Shown: one piece after another, positions 199 through 32,464 of the stretch
Numbering within the stretch: the first letter of the stretch is position 1
Layout: each line of letters starts with the position of its first letter
Notes under the pieces: model-generated
Seen by the model: the letters and a program-made list of their open reading frames with translations, nothing else
The model's database searches: none
What the model was told of the DNA's origin: nothing
IMG/VR virus record: IMGVR_UViG_3300043446_003870
Location: 1 to 33,251 of that record
Direction: 5' to 3' (one strand)
Length of the DNA stretch: 33,251 nucleotides
DNA from: a virus
Position numbers and translations under genes: made by a program

Positions 199-2030
199 GC
201 GCCGACGCGATCCGGGCGTTGACCGAGCGGGCGAACGTGGGCGCCCCGGTGGGCGAGATCGACCGCGAGCTTTCCCGGCTCCTGCCCGACGCGGCGCGGG
301 ATGCCGACGAGGCGGCGGTCGACGTGGCGCTGCGGGAGATGGGGCGGCTGCGCGGGTACGGGGGGATCGTGGCGGCGGCGGCGCGGACGGTGGCGCGGCT
401 GCGGAAGGAAGCGCGGAAGGTCAAGCGGTCAGATCCGGGGGGCGTTGACGGGGCGCCAGAGGGGTTCTGTATCGCCTCGGACATGGGCGGCGACGAGATG
501 ATTGCGGGCGCGTGGGCGCAGCTCCAGCCCCGCGAGGGGGAGAATCCGCCGCTGTACCGCCAGCCGGGGCGGTTGGTGCAGGTGATGAACGACGGGGAGA
601 TGGTGACGGTCGACGGTGACGGGCTACGCGCCCTGCTCGCCCACCGCTGCGCGTGGCACAAGTGGGTGACGGCGCCGGACGGGGGCGGGGGCTGGAAGCG
701 GATCGCGTTCCCTCCCCAGGATCTGACCTCGGCGATGTCCTCGGCGGCGATGGTCGCCGTTGCTGACCTGCCGGGGCTGGATGCGGTGGTGCGGGCGCCC
801 TACGTTGCTGCTGATGGCGAGGTGGTGACGCGCCCCGGCTACACCCCTCACGACCGGACGCTGCTCCTCCCCCATGCCCTCGACGTGCGCCGGATGCCGC
901 TGGCGCAGGCGGTCGAGGTGCTGCGCGATTGGCTGGCGGATTTCCCGTTCACCGACGAGGCGGGGTTCACCCACGCGGTTGGGGTGGCGCTGACGCCGTT
1001 GGTGCGCCGGATGATCAATGGGCCGGTGCCGCCCGTGCTGATCGAGGCGCCGAAGCCGCGCACCGGAAAGACGCTGCTCGCTCAGGCGCTGTGCGCCCCG
1101 GCGATGGGGTGGCCCGGTGTGCAGAACTGGCCGACGCAGCCGGAGGAGCAGGAAAAGACGGTGTTCGCGTCGGTGTTGAAGGCGCACGCGGCGACCATTC
1201 TCGACAACATCAAAGGCCGGGTAGACTCGCCCTCCCTGGAGGGGGTGACGACGGCTTACCCGACGTGGCGCGGGCGACCGCTCGGCACCTCGGAGGAACG
1301 GGAGGTTCCCCACCTGACACAGTGGGTTCTGACCTCCAACAATGGGTCGTTCCCCGAGGACATGATCGGGCGACTGGTGACGATCCGGCTGGATCGGAAG
1401 GTCGAGCGCCCCGATCTGGTGGACACGTCGAAGTTTCGGCACCCCCGGATCAAGGACTTCACCGAGGCCAACCGGGGCCGCATCCTGTCGGCGCTGCTGT
1501 CGCTGGTCAAGGCATGGACGGAGGCGGGGCGCCCCGCGCCGAGCTGCCCCGCGAAGGGGAGCTTTGAGGCGTGGCGCGAGGTGGTCGGCGGCATCCTCCA
1601 GCACGCGGGCCTCGACGGCTTCCTCACGGGTGCGTCGGCGTCGCGGGCCGAGATGGACGAGTGGCGCGCCCTGGTGGCGATGTGGGCGGCACGGCACGGG
1701 GCGGCGCGGGTGCGGCTCGGGAAGATCATCGAGATCTGCGATGAGAAGGATCTGGTACAGAACGACCTCGGCGGCGGCGGCGATCACGCCCGCCTGATCC
1801 GGCTCGGCGCGGCGGTCAAGGCCCGGACGGATCAGGTCTTCGATGTGGATCGGGCGCTGGTGTTGGAGGCGATGGGCGAGCAAGGGGAGGCGCCCGAGGC
1901 TACCCTCGACCGGTGCCGCTACGCGGGCGAGTTGGGCGGGGCGCGCCCCCTGCTGATCGGAATGTGGAAGATCGCCGCTCCGCGCACCATCGCCGGGGCG
2001 AAGATGTACTACCTGGAGCGCGTCGAGTAG
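195..2030 (+). CDS. Phage replicative helicase-type ATPase
   Basis: 611-residue P-loop NTPase, probably the replicative helicase or helicase half of a primase-helicase. Seen: a Walker A variant (APKPRTGKT, about residues 283-292, with Ala replacing the usual first Gly), a Walker B-like TILDN near 335, and a sensor-type LTSNN near 381, followed by RLVTIRLD. This P-loop, acidic and SNN order fits AAA+/SF3-like phage and plasmid replication ATPases. The N-terminal 200 residues are unassigned and no primase motif is clear. The ATG at 195 is chosen over the longer open frame from 54 because it overlaps the upstream stop as ATGA. Two copies of the dispersed motif lie inside (427 and 719), encoding RSDPGG and PQDLT in different frames. 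It lies just before the repeat-rich origin candidate, as expected for an initiator or helicase. Confidence 0.75.
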   Translation: MSADAIRALTERANVGAPVGEIDRELSRLLPDAARDADEAAVDVALREMGRLRGYGGIVAAAARTVARLRKEARKVKRSDPGGVDGAPEGFCIASDMGGDEMIAGAWAQLQPREGENPPLYRQPGRLVQVMNDGEMVTVDGDGLRALLAHRCAWHKWVTAPDGGGGWKRIAFPPQDLTSAMSSAAMVAVADLPGLDAVVRAPYVAADGEVVTRPGYTPHDRTLLLPHALDVRRMPLAQAVEVLRDWLADFPFTDEAGFTHAVGVALTPLVRRMINGPVPPVLIEAPKPRTGKTLLAQALCAPAMGWPGVQNWPTQPEEQEKTVFASVLKAHAATILDNIKGRVDSPSLEGVTTAYPTWRGRPLGTSEEREVPHLTQWVLTSNNGSFPEDMIGRLVTIRLDRKVERPDLVDTSKFRHPRIKDFTEANRGRILSALLSLVKAWTEAGRPAPSCPAKGSFEAWREVVGGILQHAGLDGFLTGASASRAEMDEWRALVAMWAARHGAARVRLGKIIEICDEKDLVQNDLGGGGDHARLIRLGAAVKARTDQVFDVDRALVLEAMGEQGEAPEATLDRCRYAGELGGARPLLIGMWKIAAPRTIAGAKMYYLERVE

Positions 2031-2036
2031 GGTCTG

Positions 2037-2232
2037 GGTGGGGTCTGGTGGGGTGGGGCGGTGCCTGCAAGGGTGCCGCCCCTTTGCTTTGGTGGGGTCT
2101 TGGTGGGGTCTACACCCTCTTTGGTGGGGTCTGGGTGGGGTCTACTGGCACCAGACCCCACCAAGAAAAGATCAGCGTGGTATGCTGCGAATGTTCGATT
2201 TTGAGTGGGCTTGGTGGGGTGTGGTGGGGTCT
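2037..2232 (+). repeat. Left iteron array (GGTGGGGTCT)
   Basis: Six exact plus-oriented 10-mers, one variant ending TGT at 2213, and one exact copy in the opposite orientation at 2153. Steps are 11 (2091 to 2102), 21, 11 (2123 to 2134) and 10 (2213 to 2223). The array starts 7 bases after the helicase stop. Confidence 0.85.
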
Positions 2233-2257
2233 AAAAGCCGGTCTGCGCCATAGTGGT

Positions 2258-2316
2258 AGAAAAAAAATATATGAATGTCCTGTACTCATGTATAGACATT
2301 CTATATTTTTTCTTCT
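2258..2316. repeat. AT-rich imperfect inverted repeat at the centre of the origin candidate
   Basis: The left arm is an A-run, then TATAT, then GAATGTC (2273-2279). The right arm is GACATTC (2295-2301), then TATA and a T-run. The seven-base inner arms match perfectly; the outer arms match with small bulges. It is by far the most AT-rich stretch nearby and lies midway between the two repeat arrays, which suits a DNA-unwinding element. Confidence 0.6.
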
Positions 2317-2340
2317 CTCTCACGCGTGGAGGTACCCAAA

Positions 2341-2480
2341 ACACCCCACCAGACCACACCAAAAACTGTTTAGAATGCTTGAACCGTGGTTCTTACAGGT
2401 GTGGTCTTGTGTCCGTAGACCCCACCCAGACCCCACCTAACACCTTGTAGACCCCACCAAGATTACATATAGACCCCACC
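2341..2480 (-). repeat. Right iteron array (AGACCCCACC)
   Basis: Four exact copies at 2417, 2428, 2449 and 2471 and variants at 2341 and 2351, all in the opposite orientation to the left array. One plus-oriented variant lies at 2398. Steps of 10, 11, 21 and 22 keep helical phase. Confidence 0.8.
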
Positions 2481-2515
2481 AGCCCAGTCTGCCCGCGCCT
2501 ACCCCGATGCCCTGG

Positions 2516-2573
2516 GGATCTGACCTGCTGCTCGGAGCGGTCGCGTGGGCGGGATGGGGGGGTTGTCAGATCC
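2516..2573. repeat. Inverted pair of the dispersed motif in a non-coding stretch
   Basis: A plus copy (2516-2525) and a minus variant (2564-2573) face each other and share nine complementary bases, so the stretch could fold into a stem with a loop of about 40 bases. The surrounding 2486-2635 holds no gene that can be supported. Confidence 0.6.
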
Positions 2574-2600
2574 GGGTGGGTAGGGTTGCACGCCGATGGT

Positions 2601-2623
2601 AGGTGGGGTAAGGTGGGGTAAGG
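2601..2623 (+). repeat. Tandem AGGTGGGGTA repeat next to the origin candidate
   Basis: Two exact head-to-tail copies of AGGTGGGGTA followed by AGG. The first eight bases resemble the iteron. One more copy occurs at 4258-4267, just after the gene ending at 4258. They may be outlying binding sites of the same protein. Confidence 0.5.
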
Positions 2624-2635
2624 AGCAACGCAACC

Positions 2636-2695
2636 ATGCTGGCCTTCCTGATCGCCACCTTCGCCGTTGTGGTGGTGGCGCGGGTGGCCGGCTAA
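2636..2695 (+). CDS. Putative 19-residue membrane microprotein
   Basis: ATG at 2636, with AAGGAG ten bases upstream (2620-2625), opens a 19-residue frame of nearly unbroken hydrophobic residues (Leu, Ala, Phe, Ile, Val) with one Arg near the end, enough for a single membrane span. No family can be assigned at this length. The ribosome site and composition argue for it; the shortness argues against. Confidence 0.35.
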   Translation: MLAFLIATFAVVVVARVAG

Positions 2696-2696
2696 A

Positions 2697-2736
2697 CCGA
2701 CTGACCGGTCAGAATCGAAACCGACCGGCCAGTCGG
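2697..2736. promoter_or_regulatory. Strong inverted repeat before the MazG-like gene
   Basis: Sixteen-base arms (2697-2712 and 2721-2736) match at 14 of 16 positions around an 8-base loop. The left arm contains the perfect 12-bp palindrome CTGACCGGTCAG. There is no T-run after it, so an operator or RNA hairpin in the leader of the gene at 2770 is more likely than an intrinsic terminator. Confidence 0.55.
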
Positions 2737-2769
2737 AATAAGTACTCACTGTAAGAACGGAGATAAGTT

Positions 2770-4258: not shown

Positions 4259-4319
4259 GGTGGGGTATGCGGCGCCGGGGTCTGGTTGTTCCTCGGCACC
4301 GCATCTCCATCCCCGAGTC

Positions 4320-4532
4320 ATGAAGCCCTATCCGCCCCACTACCAGACGCCCCGGATCTTCACCTCCTCGCTGGCGGCGGTGGCGGATCGTGTCGGCCCT
4401 TGTACCCTCGGTCAGATCCGGGGGGACATGGAAAGCCTGCGCGCCGCCTATGGGCTGCGGACGCACGGCGAGGTGTTGGCGCTCCTGATCCGCAGCGCCG
4501 CCATCGATCTGCAAGAGGAGGTCAAGCCATGA
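4320..4532 (+). CDS. Hypothetical small protein, possibly DNA binding
   Basis: 70 residues from ATG 4320. The C-terminal half (SLRAAYGLRTHGEVLALLIRS) resembles the helix-turn-helix part of ribbon-helix-helix proteins, but this is a weak impression. A dispersed-motif copy lies inside (4410), encoding GQIRG. The stop overlaps the next start as ATGA, which supports this frame over a longer open frame running through 4258-4320. Confidence 0.55.
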   Translation: MKPYPPHYQTPRIFTSSLAAVADRVGPCTLGQIRGDMESLRAAYGLRTHGEVLALLIRSAAIDLQEEVKP

Positions 4533-4777: not shown

Positions 4778-4836
4778 ACTACCCCATCTGCCTGTCGGTG
4801 CGCTATGATGGAGAGGTCTATGCACCCCGGATCTGA
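4774..4836 (+). CDS. Putative 20-residue microprotein ending inside a motif copy
   Basis: GTG at 4774 overlaps the previous stop as GTGA. The frame runs 20 residues and its TGA is supplied by the dispersed motif at 4829-4838 (CGG-ATC-TGA). It exactly fills the gap to the small terminase gene. It could be a translational coupler rather than a functional peptide. Confidence 0.35.
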   Translation: MNYPICLSVRYDGEVYAPRI

Positions 4837-4838
4837 CC
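4829..4838 (+). promoter_or_regulatory. Motif copy directly abutting the small terminase start codon
   Basis: GGATCTGACC is followed at once by ATG 4839. No other ribosome site is visible, so the GGA of the motif, seven bases before ATG, may act as a weak Shine-Dalgarno. The same arrangement occurs at 8894-8903 and 17037-17046. Confidence 0.6.
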
Positions 4839-5808: not shown

Positions 5809-7197
5809 ATGCACCCTGCCGCCTCGATTACCCCCCTCGACATCTACGCATGGTGTGAGCCTGCGGACGGGGGCATGTCGCCGGGGCAGCGCGCCTTTCA
5901 CCAGCACCCCGCCCGCTACCGGCGCTTGCAGGCGGGCAATCAGGTAGGCAAGTCGTACGCTGGCGCCGCCGAGGCATGGTGGGCGATGACGGGGACACAC
6001 CCCTACGCCCCCGCGCCCCCGGCTCGCCTCGGCTGGATCGTCATGCCCGACATGGACGGGGATTGGCCGAAGATCAGCAGCAAACTCCGCGAGCTGCAAC
6101 CGGGCAACGTCCTCGCCGAGCGGTGCCGCTATGACCCGGTGCGGGGCTACGTTTCTGGCGGGAAGCGTTGCATCGAACTCCGCTCCGGCTCGGTCTGCTA
6201 CCCGAAGTCGGGGACGCAAGACCCCCTCGCCCTGGAGGGCGGCACGATTGATTGGGTGTGGGTGGACGAGCCTCCCAAGCGGACGCACTGGCTGACCCTC
6301 TCACAGCGCGTCGCGGTGCGCGGTGGCAAAGTCTGGCTCACCTTCACCCCAATCGGGCGCCCGCTTGGGTGGTTGAGAGAGTACTTCGAGGGCAACCCCG
6401 ACAGCAACCCGCCGACCCCGCCCGCCCCGGATTGGGTAGAGATCCGTATCCGCCTGTCCCCGGAGAACTGCCCGCACCGCACCCCCGAGAACGTCGAGGC
6501 ACAGATTGCGCAGATGTCGCCCTGGGAGCGCCGCCAGCGTCGGGATGGAGATTGGGAAGGGCTGACCGAGGGCCGCCGGTTCGTGTCGTTCGGGGAGGGA
6601 TCGGTGGTCGATGACGCCTTCATCACCGCATTCAAGCCGGTAGACTTCCGGCTCACCTGGGATCACGGCGAGGGGACGGGGAACCAGATCGGCATCCTCC
6701 TCATCGGGGACGGGCGCCGCTGGATCGCCGCCGACGAGGTGATCAGCGAGAAGGGAAGCACGCCGGACATGGACGCCCGCCTCGCCCTCGACATGCTGAC
6801 CCGGTGGGGACTGGCCGTTGACCATGTGACCGCCGCGTTCGGGGATATCAACAGTGCGGGCAAAGCCGGGGCGGGCGCCTCGGTCAATGCCCTCCTTGAA
6901 GCCGCGTTCGCCCGCCTGACCCGCCGGAGCGCCGCCCCCTTTGAGATCCGGCGCCCGATGAAGAAGGCCGGGTCAGTGCTGGCCGGGGAGAAGGCGCTGA
7001 ACTCCCTGATCCGGGAGGGGCGATTCTTCACGACCGCGCACACCAAGAGCCTGAACGCCGCCCTCCAGCACTACACCGGGGCGGAGAAGGACTTGAAGCA
7101 CCCGCTCGACGCGGTACGCTACGGACTCTCGGACATCCTGCTGACTCCCCCCGGATCTGACCGGACTACCGCAACCCGCCCTATCATGGTAGTGTAA
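5809..7197 (+). CDS. terL: Terminase large subunit
   Basis: 462 residues. It is the ATP-driven DNA packaging motor with endonuclease activity, docking on the portal. Walker A is GNQVGKS (about residues 43-49), Walker B is VWVDEP (about 151-156), followed by a coupling motif near LTFTP. The RNase H-like nuclease half shows acidic residues in LTWDHGE (about 284), FGDINSA (about 346) and HPLDAVRYG (about 433). Length is normal. A motif copy at 7153 near the 3' end encodes PPGSD. The portal gene starts 5 bases later. Confidence 0.93.
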   Translation: MHPAASITPLDIYAWCEPADGGMSPGQRAFHQHPARYRRLQAGNQVGKSYAGAAEAWWAMTGTHPYAPAPPARLGWIVMPDMDGDWPKISSKLRELQPGNVLAERCRYDPVRGYVSGGKRCIELRSGSVCYPKSGTQDPLALEGGTIDWVWVDEPPKRTHWLTLSQRVAVRGGKVWLTFTPIGRPLGWLREYFEGNPDSNPPTPPAPDWVEIRIRLSPENCPHRTPENVEAQIAQMSPWERRQRRDGDWEGLTEGRRFVSFGEGSVVDDAFITAFKPVDFRLTWDHGEGTGNQIGILLIGDGRRWIAADEVISEKGSTPDMDARLALDMLTRWGLAVDHVTAAFGDINSAGKAGAGASVNALLEAAFARLTRRSAAPFEIRRPMKKAGSVLAGEKALNSLIREGRFFTTAHTKSLNAALQHYTGAEKDLKHPLDAVRYGLSDILLTPPGSDRTTATRPIMVV

Positions 7198-7201: not shown

Positions 7202-8914
7202 ATGCGAAGCGCCCTCCCGCCCGTCCCCGTCCCGCCGTGGCACACCGAGGCCGACACCGCCTGTCGTGAGGCCGCCGCCCTGCGCCGCCGCATGACCGAG
7301 GGCGCCTGGATCGCAGACGCCGGGATGCGTCAGGCGGACTTCTTCTCTGCCGAGGTACGCGAATACCTCCCCGCCCCGGTGACGAGCCGGAACGCCGCCC
7401 TCAACGTGTGGTCGCAGATCGCCACCCTCTACGACGACGCCCCGACCGTCGAGGTCGCCGGGAACCCCGACCTCGGCGGCGTGATCACCCCCGACCTCTG
7501 GCCGATGCGGCAACAGGCTCACCTCCTGCAAGTCGCCGCCAACGAGTGCCTGATCCGTATCGACACCGAGGAGAGCGAGGGGATCGGCTATCGCGCCGTC
7601 CCCGTCGATACCGTCGTGCTGCGTGGCTACGGCAAGTACCCGGCGAACCGCGCCCCCTTCAACCCGTGCCGCCACCAGCCCGCCCGCGTCGAGGAGTGCC
7701 GCCTGCGCCTCTCCCCATCCGGTCAGGGGATGGTCTGGACATGGGAGGTCTGGGATGTGTCAGATCCGGAGGCGCCGCTGTTCAGCATCTTCGTCCCCGC
7801 CAAGACGACGGGGGCGGACGGAAAGGAACAGGACGGATGGGCCGACGCGACCGCGCACTATGCCGGGGAGGCTGGATGGCCCGCGCAGTATCGCGACGCC
7901 GAGGGGCGCCCCGTCCTGCCCTACGTCCTCTATCATCGCCGGGTGTCCGACCGGCTCCTCGACCCGCTGACCGGGGCGGAGCTGGTCAACGGCACCCTCG
8001 ACGCGTCCGCGCTCTGGACATTCTGGATGAGCGCCGTTCGGGACGGTAGCCACCCCCAACGCTACATCATGGACGGGCATGTCCCCGCGAGCGCGAACAC
8101 TTCCGCCGGGGTCAGCAAGCTCGGCACCGACGCGATCCGCGCCTCGCCGCAGTTCATCCTGCCGATCCACGGCATCCGGCGCGGGGAGGAGTACACCAGC
8201 CCGAACGCTGGACAGTGGCAGCCCGCCGCCGATCCGGCGTCGCTGGCGACCTCGATTGAGGGCTACGAGGCGGGGCTGGCCGTCAGCGCGGGATTGTCCC
8301 CCGCCGATGTGTACCGTGGTACGTCGAACGGCTCCGGCTACGCGCTGGTAGTGTCGCAGAAGGGAAAGCGGGACATGCAGAAGAAGCTGATCCCGCCCTC
8401 TCGCAGCGGCGATCAGGTGCTTCTGGCGAAGGCGGCGGCGCTGCTCCAGGATCCCGCCCTGCCCGTCGATCCGGCGGCGTGGTCAGTCACCTATGGGATG
8501 ATCGGGGTCAGCCCCGAGGAGATCCTGAAAGAGCAGCAGGTGATCAAAGAGGATCTCGCGCTGAAGCTCACCTCGCGCCGCGCCGCGATCCGCACCCGCA
8601 ACCCGTCGATGACCGAGGCGCAGATTGACGCGCTGATCCAGGAGATCGACGAGGTCGAGGCCGACGACGGCGAGGACATGCCCGAGGATGACGCGGTGTT
8701 GACCGACCTCCTCACCCGCGCCCTGACCGCCGATCCCGTCGAGGCGCGCACCCTCACCCGCGAAGCCCTGGACATCCTCGGCGCCGATGTCGAGGAGGAC
8801 GCCGCCGAGGAAGTGCCCGGCGCCGCCCCCGCCCCGAGCGCCGCCCCCGCCCCGAGCGCCGAGCCTGCCGCCGACGTTGAGGACATGCTCCCCGGATCTG
8901 ACAATGCCAGTTGA
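7202..8914 (+). CDS. Portal protein
   Basis: 570 residues, placed directly after the large terminase as in most tailed phages. It forms the dodecameric ring through which DNA enters the head. The centre (about 230-400) has the mixed helix and strand pattern of portals, with LYHRR, NGTLDASALW and SIEGYEAGLAVSAGLSP. The C-terminus is acidic, then repeats Ala-Pro-Ser blocks (about 540-562), probably disordered. The motif copy at 8894 encodes part of the last six residues, and the next gene starts inside this one. Confidence 0.85.
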   Translation: MRSALPPVPVPPWHTEADTACREAAALRRRMTEGAWIADAGMRQADFFSAEVREYLPAPVTSRNAALNVWSQIATLYDDAPTVEVAGNPDLGGVITPDLWPMRQQAHLLQVAANECLIRIDTEESEGIGYRAVPVDTVVLRGYGKYPANRAPFNPCRHQPARVEECRLRLSPSGQGMVWTWEVWDVSDPEAPLFSIFVPAKTTGADGKEQDGWADATAHYAGEAGWPAQYRDAEGRPVLPYVLYHRRVSDRLLDPLTGAELVNGTLDASALWTFWMSAVRDGSHPQRYIMDGHVPASANTSAGVSKLGTDAIRASPQFILPIHGIRRGEEYTSPNAGQWQPAADPASLATSIEGYEAGLAVSAGLSPADVYRGTSNGSGYALVVSQKGKRDMQKKLIPPSRSGDQVLLAKAAALLQDPALPVDPAAWSVTYGMIGVSPEEILKEQQVIKEDLALKLTSRRAAIRTRNPSMTEAQIDALIQEIDEVEADDGEDMPEDDAVLTDLLTRALTADPVEARTLTREALDILGADVEEDAAEEVPGAAPAPSAAPAPSAEPAADVEDMLPGSDNAS

Positions 8915-11181: not shown

Positions 11182-11224
11182 TCCTCCCCGGATCTGACCA
11201 ACCACCCTCATCGGGAGTTCGCGC

Positions 11225-12850: not shown

Positions 12851-13603
12851 TTGGCCCTCGCCCTCGCCATCACCAAGCCCCGGAGCGTCGAGCGCGGTCG
12901 CAACACCACGCTCACGCTCACGGTTACAGACACGCTCACGGGGACGGTACAGACCCCCTCGGCGGCGACGGTGGCGATCTATGACGGCAGCACTCAGATC
13001 CTGGGGGCGACGGCAGCAACCACCCTCGGCGCGGGTGGGTACTCGGCGACCTACAGCCTCTCCGCCACCACCATCCCGACCACGATCCGGCTCACGGATC
13101 AGTGGCTGGAGGTGTGGGTGGTGACGATCTCCGGCGTCGAGTACGAGTTCCAGGTCACCGGCTACCTCTGTCGGCGCGCCTACCACCCGACCCTCACCGA
13201 CAGCGACCTCATCGCGCTGCACCCGCAACTCTCCTCGATCCGCCCGCCGGGGTACACGACCTACGGAGCGTGGCTGGATGAGGCGAGCGCATGGGTAGAG
13301 ACGCGGCTGATCCAGCAGGGGCGCCGCCCGGAGCTGGTGTTCGATGTCTGGTCGCTCCGGTACGCACACCTGTACTACGCGCTGTCGCTGATCTTCCGCG
13401 CCCTGTCGTCGTCAGTGGGGGCGGGGCGGTATGCTGACCTCGCCGCCGAGTACGATGAGAAGGCGCATGACGAGATGCGGCGGCTGAAGTTCAGGTATGA
13501 CAAGGACCAGACCGGGACGGTAGACTACCCGGAGCAGGAGACGCAGAACGCGCCCATCGTGATCACCTCGGCGCCGGTCCGGCGCTATGGGTGGTGGCCG
13601 TGA
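12851..13603 (+). CDS. Putative head-tail connector with N-terminal Ig-like domain
   Basis: 250 residues from a TTG start 4 bases after the upstream stop; no strong ribosome site, so translation is probably coupled. Residues 1-105 read as a beta-sandwich (LTLTVTDTLTGTVQ, GGYSATYSLSA). Residues about 115-220 are helical with DSDLIALHPQL and LRYAHLYYALSLIFRAL, resembling adaptor proteins that plug onto the portal. The fusion of an Ig-like domain to an adaptor is a little unusual. Confidence 0.55.
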   Translation: MALALAITKPRSVERGRNTTLTLTVTDTLTGTVQTPSAATVAIYDGSTQILGATAATTLGAGGYSATYSLSATTIPTTIRLTDQWLEVWVVTISGVEYEFQVTGYLCRRAYHPTLTDSDLIALHPQLSSIRPPGYTTYGAWLDEASAWVETRLIQQGRRPELVFDVWSLRYAHLYYALSLIFRALSSSVGAGRYADLAAEYDEKAHDEMRRLKFRYDKDQTGTVDYPEQETQNAPIVITSAPVRRYGWWP

Positions 13604-17036: not shown

Positions 17037-17046
17037 GGATCTGACC
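17037..17046 (+). promoter_or_regulatory. Motif copy directly abutting the tape measure start codon
   Basis: It fills the entire 10-base gap between TGA 17034-17036 and ATG 17047, leaving no room for any other ribosome site. Confidence 0.6.
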
Positions 17047-22100: not shown

Positions 22101-22398
22101 CGCGGCGATCCCGGCGCAGGACTACGTTGCTGCTGTCACCTCGGGATCGGCGCTCGCCTCTCGGCACAGTGACGGGCTGATCGAGGGCGCGCTCCGGCGG
22201 CAGGTCGGGGCGCGGCTGCCTGTCGTCTACCTCCCCTCCCTGGCCTATGAGGCGGCGGGTTCATCCGTCCTGATCCGGGAAGGGCAGATGTACGGGTCGC
22301 TGATCTCGGATGTCCACACCCGCGTTGCTGCGCTTGGGAACGAGACAGAGGACGAGCTTGTCACCATCGGCACGGTGCGGATCGAGGAGCTGGTTTAG
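19168..22398 (+). CDS. Large tail-tip protein with sialidase-type Asp boxes
   Basis: 1076 residues after a strong AAGGAGG site. Residues about 100-430 hold two textbook Asp boxes, SEDNGATW (about 216-223) and SADMGASW (about 269-276), spaced as in six-bladed sialidase or BNR propellers. A jelly-roll-like region follows (about 500-670), then a discoidin-like stretch (VTLQGSANDSTWTDLITLD near 771-789, YRYYRLNV near 893). The C-terminus ends in small strands. This suggests glycan binding or cleavage at the host surface. The usual sialidase catalytic Arg triad was not confirmed, so it may only bind. Motif copies at 20932 and at the stop (22398). Confidence 0.7.
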   Translation: MAEIVPDRIRGLLLHDPRFCEANRALTTTEAAPTFGTPAASGSTPRARLEAWTGASDAAGGTEGSGYDERWVECIRAGGSLPGSGAARILWSDADPASAEQRGWMPPKVVMDFQWARYESATLTYHQPHAIELADRSLLLAYVREVSGASTTIRCIRVAPESAPGSEVEIADDTYLTYGLADYDTGPALVQLPDGRVLCFYLTRRNSILLMNVRASEDNGATWTQTVKEAGGFALTGITASAGLRVVYHGGYLTCVVQIAANQAYHYASADMGASWSAISGDSPLNARGACLVALPDGGVGMLYVEDSHTYLRFTTKSGPFAPFNTTSYIRLVVSTAFNIAVDIDNERAYIAACVAQDGSIYCAFRSSGSSPGCRIKLIRFNPIPTADSSSGYSTDLLWEDIEAAAASWDSEPLTWGDDNERMIGLTLAPHLGGLRLISGYEGSVGAKTGSLGMLTLGGWSTQVVSGVTFGMYNDATQYGIAYVPFTLASLVAGWTRTGASVATLTSTGYNQSFAGAATDYYSVTGGDSGYLFALFTHTQNSGGSLTADDSFVHALCTDGATTEHNVKIRFSSTGARMVDLNNASATLGSDLSGLTAGTAYNFMIYMNLDTVYVWYKLTTATAWTLWQSVTPTSASVAASALFEWGTSSTNASNATWAFVGVAHYADPVVISHSTVIGITGRPLGTLPVYVSAGLSVRATRAPVMGGDLWQIPLRYGYGADTLDPLIQSSPRRGWRSTATTAQIIKWDMGTTAPFDCPAIGLHVSRPLCETVTLQGSANDSTWTDLITLDTTEGLAALDFTRSGDTIRRNGGDTSATYVQMDELVGGYVVLTSGGTDYVRPILSNSEGVWRATGRQLSIRIDDPNGTAPASGKVAIIRPAATRIAWAVTTGYRYYRLNVAALTQDADSPGYLALGAVTVGPLLVFGRQYSQGRTVSASIGQEVTTLTNGARSVQNLAPVRRAVEFSWAEANINTDQLYAAIPAQDYVAAVTSGSALASRHSDGLIEGALRRQVGARLPVVYLPSLAYEAAGSSVLIREGQMYGSLISDVHTRVAALGNETEDELVTIGTVRIEELV

Positions 22399-22568
22399 GT
22401 CAGATCCGGGGGGGCCAACGACACACGGGGATGTACCCCGCAGGCGGGGCGCACCGCCCACCCGTCCGGCCAGCCGTCGCCGTCCTCGTCCTGCCCCCTG
22501 GATCTGACCGGGTTGCAGTCGGCGGGGGAGTGGAGTAGGCTTACCAAGAGGATCAGGATCGGTGCCAT
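22395..22568 (-). CDS. Putative small exported protein with a calcium-binding-type loop, antisense to the tail operon
   Basis: 57 residues on the minus strand, filling the only sizeable gap in the tail operon (22399-22561). The N-terminus (MAPILILLVSLLHSPADC) resembles a signal peptide. Next comes DEDGDGWPDGW, the Asp-x-Asp-x-Asp-Gly type loop of thrombospondin type 3 or EF-hand-like calcium sites. An upstream ATG at 22583 would add five residues. No strong ribosome site or promoter was found. Motif copies lie at both ends. It may be a cargo gene or an accident of non-coding DNA. Confidence 0.35.
   Translation of the reverse strand: MAPILILLVSLLHSPADCNPVRSRGQDEDGDGWPDGWAVRPACGVHPRVSLAPPDLT
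22398..22509. repeat. Inverted pair of the dispersed motif between tail genes
   Basis: A minus copy (22398-22407, followed by seven G) and a plus copy (22500-22509, preceded by five C and a T) can pair over about 15 bases with a loop of roughly 80 bases. The first copy begins on the last base of the upstream stop codon. The pair could act as a processing or termination structure on either strand. Confidence 0.6.
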
Positions 22569-24172
22569 ACCCAGATCGCACATCCCTCGCCTCTGGTCAG
22601 CAGCGCACGGTGCTGCGGTTGACCGTTGACGGGGTGGAGCGGTACTACACCGACGCCGCGATCTCGATCCCCGACAGCACCCCCGGCACGGTGGGGGAGA
22701 TCCAAACCCTCCCCGGCATGACAGAGCCGGACATGGTGGACGCGCTCGGGGAGGGTGGCGCGTCGCTTGGGATCGAGATCCTCGACCCGGCCAACTGGTC
22801 AGCCATCATCAAAGGGTTGTCCGGCGCGCCCGCCGAGGTATCGCAGATCATCGAGGGGCAAGACTGGACGGTGCGGCGCGTCATCCTGCGGGGGCGGGTG
22901 GACTCCCCGGTGTACGGCGCGGCAGGCGAGCCGATCCGGTTCGGACTCCAGTCTGCGCCCTGGCAAGATCGGGGGCTGCTCCCTCTCCCGTCATGGGTCG
23001 TCAGCGACGCGACATGGCCCCGCGCCACCTCCGCCCTCGCCTGCCCCGGCGACCTCCACGGGCTGTTTTATCCCGTCGTCATCGGCGATCCCGGCGCCGA
23101 CGCGAGCGCGACGACCGAGGCGGATTGGTATCCCCTTCCCGCGCTGATCGTTGAGATTGACGACAGCATCGACCCGCCCGACAACAGTGCTGCCTCCTGC
23201 GTCGTGCTGCTCGGCGCGGGCGTGCTTGGGTGCGTTGGGGATAACGTCGAGGTCTACAACGAGACGACGGGCGCGAGCGCCGGGGTGTCTCCCTTCATCA
23301 CCACCGACGCCGCCGGGGTGGATGTGACCTGCGTCGAGATCGCCGCCGCCGACATGCCGGTGGTCATGGGCGACGCGCTGTTCTGGCGCCCGTCCTCTGG
23401 CGGAAAGGCGGGGATCGCGGGAACCTCGACGGCGGGCGGGGCGATCCGGTGGCTACTGTCGTGGTCGTCGGCGGAGGTGGACCCGGGGCTGATGCAGTCG
23501 GCGGCGGATCGGCTCAACCGGTGGCGCGTCGGAGCGTACATTGACGAGCCGGTCAGCCCGTACCAGTGGGTGCAGGACAACCTCTTCTCGGTGCTGCCGG
23601 TGATGATGGTGGAAGGCCCGGCCGGGATCGGGCTGGCGATCCTCCCCGTTCTGCCCGCCGATGCTGACGGGGCCGAGACGGTCGATGTAGAAGCGGTCGG
23701 GGGCGAGCGCGCTTCAGAGGTGGCCGAGTCGTCGTGGCGGGACATCTCGACATCCCTGTCTTTACAATATGCCCCGGATGATCGGCTCGGGACGTACCGG
23801 CGCCGGATCGACCTCGACCCGACGATCTCCCGCGTTGTCGGCACCCGGCACCCTACGCCCTACGGTCGAGCAGCGGCACAGCTCCTCCCCGGTCTGCGCC
23901 CCCTGGATCTGACCTTTGATGCGGTCAGTGAACCGGCGACCGCGACTGCCCTCGCCGAGTACCACCTCCGGCAAGCGGCACAGACCAGCCGCGAGGTAGA
24001 CGTAACGCTACCGCAGGCGTACCAGACGCTACAGGCGGGCGATCTGCTGCGTGTGACACTGGCCGATGTCGGGTGGTCGGAGGTGCTGTGCGTCGTCGTC
24101 TCCGTCCCCCGGATCAGCGGCGCCGGGGTGTTCCGGCTTCGGACGATCCCTGATATTGTGAGGGCGATCTAA
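22562..24172 (+). CDS. Putative tail hub or baseplate protein
   Basis: 536 residues from GTG 22562. Follows the large tail-tip gene and precedes the fibre gene. The mixed beta domains with GEIQTLPGMTEPDMVD, GIEILDPANW and a C-terminal VDVTLPQAYQTLQAGDLLRVT are like hub proteins of siphovirus tail tips, which rebuild from circularly arranged OB-type and beta domains. No peptidase motif was recognised. A motif copy (23905) encodes PLDLT. Confidence 0.55.
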   Translation: MPYPDRTSLASGQQRTVLRLTVDGVERYYTDAAISIPDSTPGTVGEIQTLPGMTEPDMVDALGEGGASLGIEILDPANWSAIIKGLSGAPAEVSQIIEGQDWTVRRVILRGRVDSPVYGAAGEPIRFGLQSAPWQDRGLLPLPSWVVSDATWPRATSALACPGDLHGLFYPVVIGDPGADASATTEADWYPLPALIVEIDDSIDPPDNSAASCVVLLGAGVLGCVGDNVEVYNETTGASAGVSPFITTDAAGVDVTCVEIAAADMPVVMGDALFWRPSSGGKAGIAGTSTAGGAIRWLLSWSSAEVDPGLMQSAADRLNRWRVGAYIDEPVSPYQWVQDNLFSVLPVMMVEGPAGIGLAILPVLPADADGAETVDVEAVGGERASEVAESSWRDISTSLSLQYAPDDRLGTYRRRIDLDPTISRVVGTRHPTPYGRAAAQLLPGLRPLDLTFDAVSEPATATALAEYHLRQAAQTSREVDVTLPQAYQTLQAGDLLRVTLADVGWSEVLCVVVSVPRISGAGVFRLRTIPDIVRAI

Positions 24173-26328: not shown

Positions 26329-26681
26329 CCCCGAATGAGCGCGACAAACTGTTAGAGCGGCTGGCCGAGGCGATGGTTGACCACGCCGAGACGAGCGCGC
26401 AGCAGCACGCCGATCTGCGCGTCAAGGTCGCCGAGATGCAGGCTACTCTCGGTCAGATCCGGGAGGCACAGAGGGAGACTTTGGGCGCAGCCGTCACGCT
26501 GCTGATCCGGCAGAGTACCGCCACCCCCTTCGGAACGGTGGCGCTGCTCGCCCTGATCGCCATCCTCGCCCTCACGTTGGCAGCCGTGGCCCTCGGATCT
26601 GACCAAGTGCTTTCGATCCTCGCCGGCAACGTGCGCCTCAGCGCCGCCTCGGATACCCTGCCTGCACCGGAGACACCATGA
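26325..26681 (+). CDS. Putative holin
   Basis: 118 residues. An amphipathic, coiled-coil-like N-terminus (about 1-60) precedes one strong membrane segment (GTVALLALIAILALTLAAVAL, about 69-89) and a short tail. Coil plus one span, next to the endolysin, fits single-span phage holins; a spanin-like role is less likely with no signal or lipobox. Two motif copies in opposite orientation (26451, 26595) flank the membrane segment. Confidence 0.65.
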   Translation: MTPNERDKLLERLAEAMVDHAETSAQQHADLRVKVAEMQATLGQIREAQRETLGAAVTLLIRQSTATPFGTVALLALIAILALTLAAVALGSDQVLSILAGNVRLSAASDTLPAPETP

Positions 26682-26881: not shown

Positions 26882-26882
26882 C

Positions 26883-28023: not shown

Positions 28024-29183
28024 GCGCCGCCACGAAGTTTTTTGCGATGGGCGTGGAACCCGCACAGCCCGCCCCGGAACGCGATCCGGCGGCACCCCTC
28101 CTCCGCACACACCCTCGCCTCTGACCGGGCAGGGAGGAGGTAGCCGGATTTGAGGAGCTGGTTGAAGTGCTGCGCGCATCCGCCCCGCTTCACTACAGAC
28201 GCTCCACACCCCCGGATCTGACACCTGCCAGGGTCGGGCGCGGGGATCAGGTCGAGGTCAGGGCGAGCGGTGGGCAGTTCACTGGCGCGCCCGTCGCGCA
28301 GCATCCGGCGATAGTGGTTCTCGCAGCAGTTCCGGGTACGGGTCGGCGCGTCGCACCCCTCGACAACGCACACACCCTCGACGGGGGCGCGCAGGATCAT
28401 CGCCCCGGCGTAGCCGTTGAGGTTGTGGCGGCGCGGCGCGGGCAGTTCATCTGCGCGGTTCTCTCGACGCAGCCGCCGGTAATGCGGCTCGCAGGCGTGG
28501 CGCTGATAGACCCTGCGCCCACACCCGACGACGACACACACCCCCTCGACGGGCGCGCCGATGACGAGGTGGTGGGGAGGGCGCCCGCGACCGCGCTTGA
28601 CCTCGACGGGCGCCGGAGGAGGCGGCGGAGGTGGAGCAGGGCGCTCGACGCGGGGGCGCGCCGGGGGCATCGAGGGGAGCGGCGCGGGAAGCTCGGCGAG
28701 GCGCTTGGCGTCGACCATCGCCTGATAGTGCCGCCCACAGCATCCCCGCTTGACCGGGCGCCGGTCACACCCCTCGACGCAGCAGATGCCATCACGACGG
28801 GGGCCGACAACGAGCAGCGTTCTCGGCGCAGGCGGGCGGGGCTTCTTCACACGAGGCGCAGGGGGCGGGCGCGGCGGCTTCGGGGGCGGGGAGGGCTTGA
28901 CCTTGACCGAGATGACCGGGCGCGGCTTGGGTGGGGGTGGGGAGGGCTTGACCTTCGCCACCTTCTCCGGCTTGACGGGCTTCGGGGGCGCAACGGTCAG
29001 ATCCGGGGGAGGCAGGTTCAGCACCCTCCGCGCCACCGGCTCCAGCGGCGGGGCGGCGCACCGGTAGCACAGCCACTCACCACAGAGGCCGCGCTTGGAG
29101 GGGCGCCGCTGAATACCATCGGTACACGACTCGCAAAACAGCGGGCGGTCAGGGTCGCCAGCCCAGGCAGGGCCGCTGCTCAT
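28020..29183 (-). CDS. Five-module zinc-binding protein with Pro-rich linker and AT-hook-like motif
   Basis: 387 residues. Five copies of C-x4-C-x9-C-x2-H start at Cys134, 216, 272, 321 and 359, most followed by Tyr-Arg-Arg and ELPAP or a close form. An N-terminal Cys cluster (17, 20, 34, 39, 42) may hold another zinc. Residues 60-125 are Pro/Lys-rich. RGRGRPP (about 197-203) resembles an AT-hook. Similar single modules occur in phage and bacterial proteins; a tandem array of five is unusual. Nucleic-acid binding is likely, and target unknown. ATG 29183 overlaps the sigma gene stop, so the two are coupled. Contains motif copies 28214 and 28995. Confidence 0.75.
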   Translation of the reverse strand: MSSGPAWAGDPDRPLFCESCTDGIQRRPSKRGLCGEWLCYRCAAPPLEPVARRVLNLPPPDLTVAPPKPVKPEKVAKVKPSPPPPKPRPVISVKVKPSPPPKPPRPPPAPRVKKPRPPAPRTLLVVGPRRDGICCVEGCDRRPVKRGCCGRHYQAMVDAKRLAELPAPLPSMPPARPRVERPAPPPPPPPAPVEVKRGRGRPPHHLVIGAPVEGVCVVVGCGRRVYQRHACEPHYRRLRRENRADELPAPRRHNLNGYAGAMILRAPVEGVCVVEGCDAPTRTRNCCENHYRRMLRDGRASELPTARPDLDLIPAPDPGRCQIRGCGASVVKRGGCAQHFNQLLKSGYLLPARSEARVCAEEGCRRIAFRGGLCGFHAHRKKLRGGA

Positions 29184-29989
29184 GACAACCACTTCAGCGC
29201 GGCGACGGCGCGGGCGGCCTCGGGGGTGTCCTTGCCGTGGATGTGGTCGGCGATCCGCTGGCGCGACATGTCGCAGATCTGGCCGATGCGCTGGCGGGAT
29301 GTCCCCTCGCTGGCGGCGATCATGGCCTGATCCTCGCCGGAGACGTACCGCAGGAAGATCGCGGCGTGGCGGGGATGGAGGGCATCGAGGGCGGCCCGGA
29401 TGCGCTCGCCCCGGATGGCATCGTCGGCGGCGTCGTCGGGGAGGGGGCCGCTTGACGCGAGCAGGTCGATCAGCCGCAGCTCGGGGCGGTCAGCGTAGGG
29501 CGGCGCGTCGAGCCGGAGCGCCCATACCCGCGCAGAGACGGGGGTGTGTCGCCCAGTCTGGACATCCCCGGCGCGGTCAACGCAGGTCAGGAGGGCAGCC
29601 CGCGCCCACCATGCCACCCAGGATCTGACCGTTGTTCCCCGGCCCGGCTCAAACCGACTGAGCGCCCGATACGCGCCGAGGCGGCAGGTCTGATAGATGT
29701 CCTCCTCCTCGACGCCCCGGCGGGCGTCATGGCGGCTGTACTTGGCGATTCGGATCAGGAAGGCGTCATAGCCGAGGATGATCCGCCAGTACAGCGCATC
29801 TGCGCGGGCAAAGAGGCGGGCGGCCTCTCCGGTGGCGGTGCGGCGCGCAGCCTCGACGCGCAGCCCGCGAGACTGGTCAGATCCGGGGGGCAGCAGGTCG
29901 AGCGCCTGCTGCTCATGTTGCTGCGCTGCGAGGACGAGCCTCACCGCCTCGGCGTCGTTCATCCTCTCGGTGCGGGGAGCGCCGTTCAT
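29180..29989 (-). CDS. Phage-encoded sigma-70 family factor
   Basis: 269 residues. Region 2 spans about 74-137: DAFLIRIAKYS, EEEDIYQTCRLGAYRALSRF, EPGRGTTVRSWVAWWARAAL, matching the core-binding and -10 recognition helices of sigma-70. RLDAPP to LIDLLAS (about 159-179) fits the region 3-4 link. Region 4 is about 198-250, with an HTH (AMIAASEGTSRQRIGQICDM). It would redirect host RNA polymerase to phage promoters. ATG 29989 overlaps the upstream stop as ATGA and is preferred to the start at 30025. Motif copy 29621 lies in the codons of the conserved TVRSWVAWW. Confidence 0.85.
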   Translation of the reverse strand: MNGAPRTERMNDAEAVRLVLAAQQHEQQALDLLPPGSDQSRGLRVEAARRTATGEAARLFARADALYWRIILGYDAFLIRIAKYSRHDARRGVEEEDIYQTCRLGAYRALSRFEPGRGTTVRSWVAWWARAALLTCVDRAGDVQTGRHTPVSARVWALRLDAPPYADRPELRLIDLLASSGPLPDDAADDAIRGERIRAALDALHPRHAAIFLRYVSGEDQAMIAASEGTSRQRIGQICDMSRQRIADHIHGKDTPEAARAVAALKWLS

Positions 29990-31266: not shown

Positions 31267-31286
31267 ATCGCCTCCTTGCGCCCCAT

Positions 31287-31315
31287 ATCGTATCATGGTA
31301 TATCGGGTCTATCAA
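31287..31315 (-). promoter_or_regulatory. Promoter of the HNH gene
   Basis: On the minus strand TTGATA (31310-31315), a 17-base spacer, TACGAT (31287-31292), just upstream of the AAGGAGG ribosome site. The element therefore carries its own promoter. Confidence 0.6.
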
Positions 31316-31329
31316 CCCCATAGGCGCAC

Positions 31330-32400
31330 ATGATCTTCTGTGAACCGTTCGCCGGTAGTGCGGCAATGTCTTACTACCTTCTTGGCGCAAAGCCGCCCAT
31401 TTCGTATTTAGGAAGTAAGCAAAACTTCGCCCCCACCATCGCCGCCTGCCTCGGCCTCTCCCCGCGCCAGCGCCCCGCTGGGGTCGTTCTCGGGGAGATC
31501 GGGCCGATGGCGGCGGTTCATGCCGTGTTGGGCGGGGCGGTCGGGAGCGCGGCGGAAGTGGCGCAACTGCTCTTTGTGCATGGCGGTTCTGTGATGTCGA
31601 TGGGGACAAACCCGTTCGGGGGCAACCTGGAGGGATGGGAAGGGACAGAATTCGGGACAAGTTCCAAGCGCCCGCTACTGGATCGCCTTCCTGACGCGCT
31701 CGCCCTCCCCCACCCCCGCGCCGCCGAGGTCGCCGCGATCATCCGGGGTTGGGCCGGGGAGGAGCCGCGCCCGCTCTGGGAGCGCCTGCGCCGGGAGGGC
31801 TGGCCGTCGCTGATGCCGGTGCCGGGTGGGCGGTGGCTGGGGCCGCAGGCGGTAGAGGAAGTGGCGCGGCTGTTGTGGTGTGGGGTGCGGTCGTACAAGC
31901 GCGGCCAGCCCGAGAGCGGGTTCAAGGCGGCGGACTACCCGGGCGGCGGCAACCACGACGGCGGCGCCGAGTACCAGCCCGACAGCCCCGCGCCCGCTGT
32001 CGAGACCCTCCCCGCCTTCCCGCCCCTCGCCGTCTGGCAAGGGAGCGCCGATGCCCTCGCCCTCCCCGCCGACCTGTCGGGATGGGTGGTCTACGCAGAC
32101 CCCCCCTACCTCGGCGATGGAAGCCGGAAGATCACGGGCTACCCCCACGGCACCTGTAGCCGGGAGACGGTGGTGAGGCTGGCGCGGGAGTGGAGCGAGC
32201 GGGGCGCGACGGTGGCGATCAGCGAGTGCGTTGGGCTGGCGGGCGACCTCGGGGCGGGCTGGCACGAGGTTGAGATTACGCATGGTCGTAAGGGCCAAAA
32301 ACGTAGTTTCAGTGTGCAACAATCCGAGATTCTTACAATGAACCGCCCGCCCCAACACGCGCCGCACCGGGGGCAGGTTACACTATTCGGAGGAGCCTAA
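31330..32400 (+). CDS. DNA adenine methylase (D12/Dam type)
   Basis: 356 residues. Transfers methyl from S-adenosylmethionine to adenine N6, either protecting phage DNA or changing its regulation. SAM motif EPFAGSA (residues 5-11), a motif X-like YLGSK (26-30), and catalytic DPPY (257-260). The order SAM motif then YLGSK is inverted against classic Dam; I recall it from other phage methylases. ATG 31330 has no good ribosome site, and the native first six codons are lost. Near the 3' end (about 32272-32345) the codons again become A/T-rich. Confidence 0.82.
   Translation: MIFCEPFAGSAAMSYYLLGAKPPISYLGSKQNFAPTIAACLGLSPRQRPAGVVLGEIGPMAAVHAVLGGAVGSAAEVAQLLFVHGGSVMSMGTNPFGGNLEGWEGTEFGTSSKRPLLDRLPDALALPHPRAAEVAAIIRGWAGEEPRPLWERLRREGWPSLMPVPGGRWLGPQAVEEVARLLWCGVRSYKRGQPESGFKAADYPGGGNHDGGAEYQPDSPAPAVETLPAFPPLAVWQGSADALALPADLSGWVVYADPPYLGDGSRKITGYPHGTCSRETVVRLAREWSERGATVAISECVGLAGDLGAGWHEVEITHGRKGQKRSFSVQQSEILTMNRPPQHAPHRGQVTLFGGA
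31333..31410 (+). repeat. Recoded second copy of 26 methylase codons (first copy 30593-30670)
   Basis: Codon by codon, 24 of 26 residues are identical, but 16 of 26 codons differ, 14 of them synonymously, giving 21 base changes in 78. Changes mostly introduce A or T in the third position. Low-GC codons continue to about 31422, after which the usual GC-rich codons return. Confidence 0.85.
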
Positions 32401-32404
32401 CACT

Positions 32405-32464
32405 ATGCCCACGCTGCCTAACACTACCTCCCCGGATCTGACCTCCTGCTCGGTGAACCTGTGA
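32405..32464 (+). CDS. Putative 19-residue microprotein carrying a motif copy
   Basis: ATG 32405 after GGAGGAG. The frame contains the motif copy 32434 as SPDLT and its TGA overlaps the next GTG as GTGA. It may mainly couple translation of the next gene to the methylase. Confidence 0.4.
   Translation: MPTLPNTTSPDLTSCSVNL

Follow-up and report, generated by a model that had tools for sequence, protein, structure and literature searches.

The window, a stretch of 33,251 nucleotides (positions 1 to 33,251 of IMG/VR virus record IMGVR_UViG_3300043446_003870), carries a replication helicase/primase-like gene followed by a putative iteron-type replication origin, then thyX, the terminase gene, structural genes including the tape-measure gene, a gene with sigma-70 region 2 codons and, cut by the window end, the start of a Holliday-junction-resolvase-like nuclease gene. 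A short asymmetric DNA motif is dispersed over the whole stretch (Table 1).

Table 1. Motif copies and associated features of the window. Names beginning with G denote relatives of the window; G008 and C93 are the phages compared with it in detail.
Position	Strand	Feature	Basis
195..2030	+	Replication helicase/primase-like gene just before the putative origin	Read from 54: phrog_10537 (unknown function, E 1.5e-53), phrog_19930 (DNA polymerase/primase, E 1.6e-18), no Pfam match; start as called
427..442	-	Motif copy	Exact core
713..728	+	Motif copy	Exact core
2031..2769	.	Putative iteron-type replication origin: intergenic, GC 0.57, CCCCACC 17 times in both orientations around an AT-rich inverted repeat (2258-2316), facing motif pair towards its downstream end	Cumulative GC-skew maximum in the 2001-3000 bin; origin function inferred
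2510..2525	+	Motif copy, left arm of the facing pair in the putative origin	Exact core; closest pair of the genome
2564..2579	-	Motif copy (GGATCTGACA), right arm of the facing pair in the putative origin	Pair also in G001, G008, C93
3851..3866	+	Motif copy, 3' end of thyX	Exact core; Thy1
4410..4425	-	Motif copy	Exact core
4823..4838	+	Motif copy directly before the ATG at 4839	Exact core
7147..7162	+	Motif copy, 3' end of terminase gene	Exact core; same place in G001, G006, G002, G008 and G004, absent in G005
7758..7773	-	Motif copy (GGATCTGACA)	Same place in G001 and G009, absent in G006, G002, G008, G004, G005
8888..8903	+	Motif copy (GGATCTGACA) before the ATG at 8904	Same place in the six relatives aligned there (G001, G009, G006, G002, G008, G004)
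11184..11199	+	Motif copy	Exact core
12992..13007	-	Variant copy CCCCCAGGATCTGAG	Not in the initial annotation
13695..13710	+	Motif copy	Exact core; core at the same place in G006 but not in G009, G002, G008, G005
15620..15635	+	Motif copy	Exact core
16053..16068	-	Motif copy	Exact core
17031..17046	+	Motif copy directly before the ATG at 17047 (no C run)	Exact core
18412..18427	-	Motif copy	Exact core
19107..19122	+	Motif copy, 3' end of the tape-measure gene	Exact core; same place in the two relatives aligned there (G006, G008)
20926..20941	+	Motif copy	Exact core
22398..22413	-	Motif copy	Exact core
22494..22509	+	Motif copy	Exact core
23899..23914	+	Motif copy	Exact core
26451..26466	-	Motif copy	Exact core
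26589..26604	+	Motif copy	Exact core
28208..28223	+	Motif copy (GGATCTGACA)	
28995..29010	-	Motif copy	Exact core
29615..29630	+	Motif copy inside the sigma-70 region 2 codons	Exact core
29875..29890	-	Motif copy	Exact core
32428..32443	+	Motif copy	Exact core
32829..33248	+	Start of a Holliday-junction-resolvase-like nuclease gene, cut by the window end; candidate partner, not shown to bind the motif	Alignment, present in the three phages compared; Foldseek of the C93 copy to Hjc/RecU

The motif exceeds chance expectation

The initial annotation, made from the sequence alone, described a 16-bp asymmetric motif with 24 exact cores and four one-base variants, and our counts confirm this observation. 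We found 24 exact GGATCTGACC (16 plus, 8 minus) and four GGATCTGACA, giving 28 sites, 18 plus and 10 minus, spanning 427-32443. Allowing up to one mismatch, the window holds 31 matches, against a mean of 3.64 and a largest count of 8 in 100 dinucleotide-preserving shuffles. The other three one-mismatch matches (1325, 16925 and 23320) lack the C run that precedes most sites, and we treat them as chance. A sequence logo carried information only from -6 to +9, which confirms the 16-bp extent, and showed no dyad. The C run is a preference rather than a fixed feature: 11 of 28 sites have CCCCC at -6 to -2, and 23 of 28 have at least four C there. A 29th site, GGATCTGAG at 13001 on the minus strand with CCCCCA before it, had not been listed.

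To assess if codon usage could explain the copies, a condition that the initial annotation had set as a possible refutation, we compared the window with 200 synonymous-codon shuffles. These gave a mean of 12.8 and a maximum of 16 copies of GGATCTGA, against 29 observed; 11 of those are noncoding copies that the shuffle leaves in place, so that about 2 are expected in coding sequence against 18 seen. The initial annotation had noted that the motif is read in several frames inside genes; mostly two of the three are used, and for copies that point with the gene the third would put TGA in frame. As also annotated, one core (29621) falls in the sigma-70 region 2 codons and three (4829, 8894 and 17037) sit directly before an ATG.

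The motif belongs to one phage lineage

The motif was carried by eight of nine viral contigs with 73-97% identical terminase, whereas 33 distant relatives hold 0-2 copies. A scan of species genomes for the 17-base form returned 16 stretches on 14 contigs, and the only contig with more than one copy was a phage contig. This 39.9-kb circular contig is held in a Gemmatimonadetes MAG, in which 24 of 25 exact cores lie on it. Outside it, the MAG holds 10 copies of GGATCTGA against 121 of the control GATCTGGA, although the host assignment of the phage contig is uncertain. A host-wide DNA uptake sequence or other genomic signature mirrored by the phage is therefore very unlikely and largely refuted, even though the density of about one site per 1.1 kb is similar to that of uptake sequences; a host outside the genomes scanned, or one with only the 8-base core genome-wide, is not excluded. 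We also infer that uptake of double-stranded DNA should not need the strand-wise regularity described below.

Each strand carries its own regularly spaced series

Plus-strand gaps in the window ranged from 0.97 to 2.8 kb (CV 0.27). The per-strand spacing CV was 0.32, against 0.73 after shuffling orientations (p<0.0002), with similar results in G008 and C93. The alternation of orientation is explained by two regular series laid over each other (strand-shift null, p = 0.38, 0.20 and 0.09). The two series are thus independent, and the two strands appear to be served separately. Sites were counted at 18+/11- in the window, 19+/19- in G008 and 19+/15- in C93.

The use of both strands bears on a rival reading, in which the sites are recognised by a phage nickase that makes site-specific single-strand breaks, now on both strands. 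Phages tf, phiKMV-like and T5-like have site-specific nicks at short asymmetric sequences, but in all of them the nicks lie on one strand only (PMC3517423). A nuclease gene is conserved here, yet it looks like a Holliday junction resolvase. We consider this reading unlikely.

Alternatively, the copies could serve one local purpose with no shared spacing function, close direct repeats being purged by deletion so that same-strand gaps look regular. Recombination between dispersed 17-bp repeats appears to have deleted segments in Cluster O phages (PMC4351075), and close opposite pairs are not avoided here. However, this does not explain the small largest gaps (2.8 kb on the window plus strand), nor the regular plus series across the structural genes (nine gaps, 1405-2511 bases, CV 0.19), where a deletion should be lethal and leave no trace. 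This explanation is improbable.

The strand specificity, use of both strands and regular per-strand spacing fit a Chi-like recombination signal as well as a priming signal. In this view, a helicase-nuclease or recombinase entering at a DNA end would recognise the motif in one orientation only, so that properly oriented sites would be needed within a few kilobases on both strands, and the phage would use it to spare or recombine its own DNA. The Holliday-junction-resolvase-like gene is shared by the three phages, and an AAA_24-type, Sak4-like ATPase by C93 and G008. Yet Chi is a host-wide signal, whereas the 17-base form is multi-copy only on the phage contig in our genome scan, and GGATCTGA has 10 copies in the MAG outside that contig, against 121 of the control, a comparison limited by the uncertain host assignment of the contig. 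A Chi-like role does not explain the facing pair described below, and no RecBCD/AddAB-type gene was recognised among the proteins scanned, which were only part of the genes. This is the main rival, and remains possible though doubtful.

Orientation is not tied to transcription

A repressor binding dispersed asymmetric sites and blocking transcription would be a further possibility: Cluster A phages carry 20 to 30 asymmetric 13-bp stoperators per genome (PMC6550527), and several copies here lie at gene junctions. A small protein with a weak RHH-type match is encoded at 29986-30270 of the window (E 0.0011, below the family's curated cut-off). However, stoperators predominantly follow transcription (PMC6550527), whereas here 47 sites run with and 40 against the gene they lie in over five genomes (homologous sites counted in each genome), and 18 with and 11 against in the window. 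The minus series is also regular in genomes where most genes are on the plus strand. No repressor or integrase was recognised among the genes scanned, though not every gene was covered. Binding by a phage regulator or silencer is unlikely. Some polarity exists at gene ends: sites within 80 bp of gene 3' ends mostly point with the gene (21 of 24) and near 5' ends against it (6 of 7). As 13 of the 21 are three conserved places counted in several genomes, and 3 of the 6 are one such place, the distinct places are 11 against 3 and 4 against 1. This polarity favours a regulator and is not explained by replication alone.

A facing pair lies in the putative origin

In the window, G008 and C93 the helicase genes are not alike and the iterons are phage-specific, yet in each the AT-richer intergenic stretch after that gene holds a facing motif pair, 49-51 bp start to start, which is the closest pair in each genome. 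Under random placement P is 0.005-0.008 per genome, although the stretch was chosen after the pairs had been seen. The cumulative GC-skew maximum falls in the 1-kb bin of the pair in all three. Both strands are used on both sides of the pair (C93 9+/6- and 9+/8-, G008 8+/8- and 10+/10-), although the genes run mostly one way. C93 encodes a Prim-Pol primase and a D5-type helicase, and G008 has a homologue of the Prim-Pol; no Prim-Pol was found in the window itself, which is a fragment.

A tentative replication signal

We tentatively propose that the motif is a strand-specific replication signal of this phage lineage, read on single strands or by a machine moving along one strand, and needed every couple of kilobases on both strands. 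The phage would start replication at an iteron origin just after its helicase/primase gene, where the facing pair would serve as the two initiation or priming sites, one per strand. Copies elsewhere would let complementary-strand synthesis start at many points on either displaced strand, or help forks restart. Our analyses establish the motif, its lineage restriction, DNA-level selection, the two independent strand-wise series, and the pair in an iteron-bearing stretch after the helicase gene at the GC-skew maximum. That the stretch is the origin, that the motif is a priming or initiation site and that a phage protein reads it are inferences.

Several points weigh against this proposal. No protein is shown to read the motif, and the skew sign (maximum, not minimum) is opposite to the usual sign at bacterial origins and would fit a terminus. 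If only lagging strands needed priming, sites should favour one strand per arm, and they do not. A motif-less sister phage, L129, exists without it, and known primase sites are mostly 3-5 bases.

The interpretation in the initial annotation is partly supported. A DNA-level, phage-wide signal unlike the known ones tested is supported; of the analogies it offered, uptake sequences, stoperators and start-associated sequences are not, while a Chi-like role stays open. The family-wide conservation, the strand-wise series and the link to an iteron region go beyond it.

A bolder form of the proposal, which we regard as doubtful but not excluded, is that the genome is tiled on each strand separately with a long, sequence-specified start signal, so that complementary-strand (Okazaki-like) synthesis would begin at fixed addresses roughly every 2 kb on both strands, with the origin pair as the founding copy. 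No cell or virus is known to us to programme its priming points over the whole genome by a motif of this length. If the replication reading holds, the family gives a natural system with site-specified initiation on both strands, in which what sets lagging or complementary start points becomes testable at fixed, predicted addresses. If it is a recombination signal instead, it would be a phage-owned counterpart of Chi that separates phage from host DNA. The strand-wise spacing test is also a cheap scan applicable to any genome.

Comparison with known systems

Dispersed short signals in phages are known, but none that we know of tile each strand separately at near-regular intervals and also occupy the putative origin. 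Chi sites (RecBCD/AddAB) likewise have an asymmetric core of about 8 bases; they depend on orientation and are needed on both strands, as may hold here, but they are a host-genome signal, whereas this motif is confined to one phage lineage and rare in the only candidate host, itself uncertain. Stoperators of Cluster A mycobacteriophages are also dispersed asymmetric sites that vary with the phage lineage (PMC6550527), but they are predominantly oriented with transcription, whereas here both strands are used and each is regular. The nick sites of phages tf, phiKMV and T5 are also short, asymmetric, dispersed and of unknown function (PMC3517423), but lie on one strand. The 17-bp repeats of Cluster O mycobacteriophages, of unknown function, occur in 34 near-invariant copies in Corndog, in and between genes (PMC4351075), but are palindromic and denser at one genome end. 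Start-associated sequences of Cluster K mycobacteriophages are conserved, short and closely linked to start codons, which only 3 of 28 copies here directly precede.

By analogy, the putative origin recalls that of RSF1010, which has iterons plus ssiA/ssiB recognised by its primase (PMC4234260). The RSF1010 sites are oppositely oriented, one per strand, beside replication genes, and the facing pair here shares this arrangement; a Prim-Pol type primase is also encoded in C93 and, as a homologue, in G008. Known ssi sites are stem-loops (PMC4234260), whereas single copies of this motif have no stem and only the pair as a whole can pair with itself (C93 and window), and here 11-19 copies per strand are spread over the genome.

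Occurrence and distribution of the motif

The initial annotation had described CCCCCNGGATCTGACC as occurring 28 times in 33 kb, in both orientations, and this observation held in count, strand and place for the core. Information is confined to positions -6 to +9 and the motif has no dyad. The C run is a preference, with 11 of 28 sites carrying all five C and 23 of 28 at least four. Chance was excluded in two ways. First, allowing up to one mismatch, 31 matches were found against a mean of 3.64 and a maximum of 8 in 100 dinucleotide shuffles. Second, synonymous-codon shuffles left about 2 coding copies of GGATCTGA in the window, where 18 are seen, and about 3 and 4 in two related phages, C93 and G008, where 28 and 36 are seen. 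Few weak sites exist (2, 4 and 5 in the window, C93 and G008), which speaks against gaps being filled by weak sites, so recognition of the core looks all-or-none.

To determine which phages carry the motif, we searched for relatives of the window, an IMG/VR virus record for which queries with parts of the sequence gave no DNA match in 50,697 phage records. Its terminase retrieved relatives at 73-97% identity as well as more distant ones. Of nine close contigs (L125-L133), eight hold 5 to 38 copies of GGATCTGA and one, L129 (11,958 bases), holds a single copy; L126, L127 and L131 look like near copies of each other, so the eight are not independent. Thirty-three distant loci (L134-L166) hold 0-2 copies each. 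On the terminase tree L129 sits inside the motif group as sister of L133/C93 (support 99/99), so the motif was probably lost there, unless the terminase gene was exchanged. No replacement motif was found among the most enriched 8-mers of L129, whose CCCTCACC copies are all on one strand and look codon-driven. Two further scans for contigs of the family, by the Prim-Pol and by the nuclease, added none, returning four distant Prim-Pol loci with 0-2 copies of GGATCTGA and the contig of G008 already in the set. In C93 the Prim-Pol gene lies at L190 18924-19787, on the minus strand.

We next asked whether the motif could be a host-wide signature mirrored by the phage. A complete scan of a genome collection (84,980 species) for the 17-base form gave 16 stretches. 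Thirteen contigs hold one match each, and one contig, JAGWYS010000005.1 of Gemmatimonadetes MAG REEB496, holds six. This contig is C93 (39,946 bases with a 69-base end overlap), a relative of the window phage that is complete as far as its circular ends show. It holds 24 of the 25 exact cores of the 3.8-Mb MAG and 34 of its 44 GGATCTGA, whereas a control word of the same dinucleotides occurs 121 times outside the contig, although codon effects may add to this difference. The 16-base form gave seven stretches in viral contigs: four copies each in two contigs of this lineage, one in a third, and one each in four others. On the genome scan and the MAG counts we rejected a host-wide motif. The MAG is at best a hint to the host, since of 298 Gemmatimonadota genomes searched, drawn from a larger group, it alone had a terminase relative.

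GATC is contained in the motif and occurs at 2.7-4.4 times its composition expectation in the motif phages (8.6-12.5 per kb in the window, C93, G008 and other motif contigs, compared with L129/G005), but at 0.47 times (1.6 per kb) in the motif-less sister L129. The loss of the motif may therefore go with a change in modification or restriction. GGCC is at about half the count expected from synonymous-codon shuffles in the window, C93 and G008 (172 vs 380, 249 vs 493 and 208 vs 464), as under restriction by a GGCC enzyme. A phage-encoded methyltransferase/nuclease pair acting on the motif was considered because both genes are shared by the three phages. However, the methyltransferase model was unusable (mean pLDDT 37) and the nuclease resembles Holliday junction resolvases. 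In the window, a D12-type DNA methyltransferase gene appears as a truncated copy and a full start (IFCEPFAGSAAM...KPPISYL twice) on either side of an HNH endonuclease gene, as if the latter had invaded it with a partial duplication.

Further features of the window
Coordinates	Strand	Feature
30566-31430		Truncated copy and full start of a D12-type DNA methyltransferase gene, with the HNH endonuclease gene between them
30664-31296	minus	HNH endonuclease gene
28020-29192	minus	390-aa frame with repeated Cys/His-rich units and no Pfam match

Turnover of sites

Aligned to relatives at 67-79% DNA identity (86-93% for the close relative G001), sites appear and vanish mostly by substitution; some of these places also have small gaps, and no insertion of a motif unit was seen. 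A few sites are kept in place: at the end of the terminase gene (kept in the relatives G001, G006, G002, G008 and G004, absent in G005), at the end of the next gene (kept in the six relatives aligned there) and at the end of the tape-measure gene (kept in the two relatives aligned there). Most others are not at matching places. Local turnover, in which a lost site is replaced nearby, has mixed support: 5 of 10 strand-by-relative comparisons reach p<0.05 with homologous sites counted in and 5 do not, and the relatives are not independent.

Each strand carries its own regular series

Orientations alternate more than shuffled labels allow (p 0.0018 in the window, 0.0004 in G008, 0.008 in the relative G009 and 0.00015 in C93), while four shorter contigs with 5-13 sites (G006, G002, G001 and G004) were not significant. 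We first took this alternation as a mechanism of its own, with facing or outward-facing units, but rejected it because sliding one strand's series along the other gives about as many alternations (p 0.38, 0.20, 0.09). The cause is that each strand's series is regular. The per-strand CV is 0.32, 0.50 and 0.50 in the window, G008 and C93, against 0.73, 0.79 and 0.80 with shuffled orientations (p at most 0.0002); G009, G002 and G001 agree (p 0.039, 0.039 and 0.013), and G006 does not reach 0.05 (p 0.081). Same-strand gaps under 1 kb are 2 of 27, 5 of 38 and 3 of 34, against 7.7, 11.4 and 9.8. The plus strand of the window has 17 gaps of 972 to 2,813 bases, with a CV of 0.27 overall and 0.19 across the structural genes, whereas its minus strand is sparser (10 gaps, 880-5,234). 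On the sliding test we take the strands as independent.

A scan of enriched non-palindromic 8-mers puts GGATCTGA first for strand-wise regularity in the three genomes. The scan found nothing comparable in 21 loci of 10 kb or more, comprising 17 distant terminase relatives and the four Prim-Pol loci (best p 0.014, n=11, in L164). One distant relative, L160 (IMGVR_UViG_3300025154_000153), has another dispersed asymmetric word, CGGTATCT, usually followed by G (26 copies in 21 kb), plus the palindrome CTCCGGAG (48 strand-summed, i.e. 24 places), but strand-wise regularity of the overlapping word GGTATCTG was not significant (p 0.11).

A proposed link to replication

The replication modules of the three phages differ. 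C93 has a D5-type helicase, G008 a DUF927 protein with a weak Cch-type HTH match and the window a helicase/primase-like protein, and tblastn finds no convincing similarity between them. Each gene is followed by an AT-richer intergenic stretch (GC 0.54-0.57 against 0.67-0.69) with its own iterons: CCCCACC 17 times in the window, where the stretch spans 2031-2769, AGGACAC 10 in C93 and TGCTACA 10 in G008. Towards its downstream end each stretch has a facing pair of the motif 49-51 bases apart, the closest pair in each genome. Random placement gives P 0.005-0.008 per genome, with the stretch chosen after the pairs had been seen. G001 has the same pair. Both strands carry sites on either side of the origin pair.

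The cumulative GC skew peaks in the 1-kb bin of the pair in all three phages, although the window is a fragment: by comparison with C93 and G008 it lacks the part between its end and its start, which there holds the AAA_24 ATPase, the Prim-Pol and a helicase. This looks like an iteron origin in which the iterons change with the initiator but the motif pair stays. Only three genomes contain this stretch and are long enough for the strand test. The sign of the skew is opposite to the usual one at bacterial origins, so a terminus is not excluded. As single-stranded DNA, the pair can pair with itself strongly in C93 (z -5.2) and weakly in the window (z -1.3).

A strand-specific need on both strands, over the whole genome and regardless of gene direction, fits replication or recombination better than transcription, and the origin pair favours replication. 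If a primer is laid 3' of each site on the strand that carries it, as described for RSF1010 (PMC4234260), the facing pair would send synthesis outward in both directions, and the dispersed copies would start complementary synthesis on displaced strands. The motif, its lineage restriction, the two strand-wise series and the facing pairs rest on direct observation of the sequences, whereas the origin, and any priming at the sites, are inferred, and we hold this reading only tentatively. The main rival, which we consider less likely, is a Chi-like signal; a Holliday-junction-resolvase-like gene is common to the three phages.

Two results stand against either reading. By gene calls from a simple script, and thus roughly, sites within 80 bp of a gene's 3' end in the window, G008, G009, G006 and G002 mostly point with the gene (21 of 24; 11 of 14 distinct places), and those near 5' ends against it (6 of 7; 4 of 5 distinct places). 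Coding tolerance for Pro-Gly-Ser-Asp or Asp-Leu-Thr tails may be the reason. In addition, the C run is weaker in G008 (8 of 38 sites with at least four C) and in G002.

Comparison with known systems

The initial annotation had likened the density of the motif to that of DNA uptake sequences, Chi sites, or the stoperators and start-associated sequences of some actinophages, but noted that the sequence fitted no known one; its interpretation as a whole was only partly supported. Within an open-licence library, literature searches on stoperator orientation, phage nicks, RSF1010 ssi sites and SaPI origins found no description of this pattern. Those for GGATCTGA with phage gave papers that were unrelated by their listing, those for overrepresented motifs on both strands and for Chi with phage genomes gave none, and that for repeated asymmetric sequences in both orientations gave only the Cluster O repeats.

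Stoperators predominantly follow transcription (PMC6550527), and transcription-coupled stoperators were rejected here on orientation. Nicks of tf, phiKMV-like and T5-like phages lie on one strand (PMC3517423), and this comparison fails because the motif occupies both. The Cluster O repeats are palindromic (PMC4351075).
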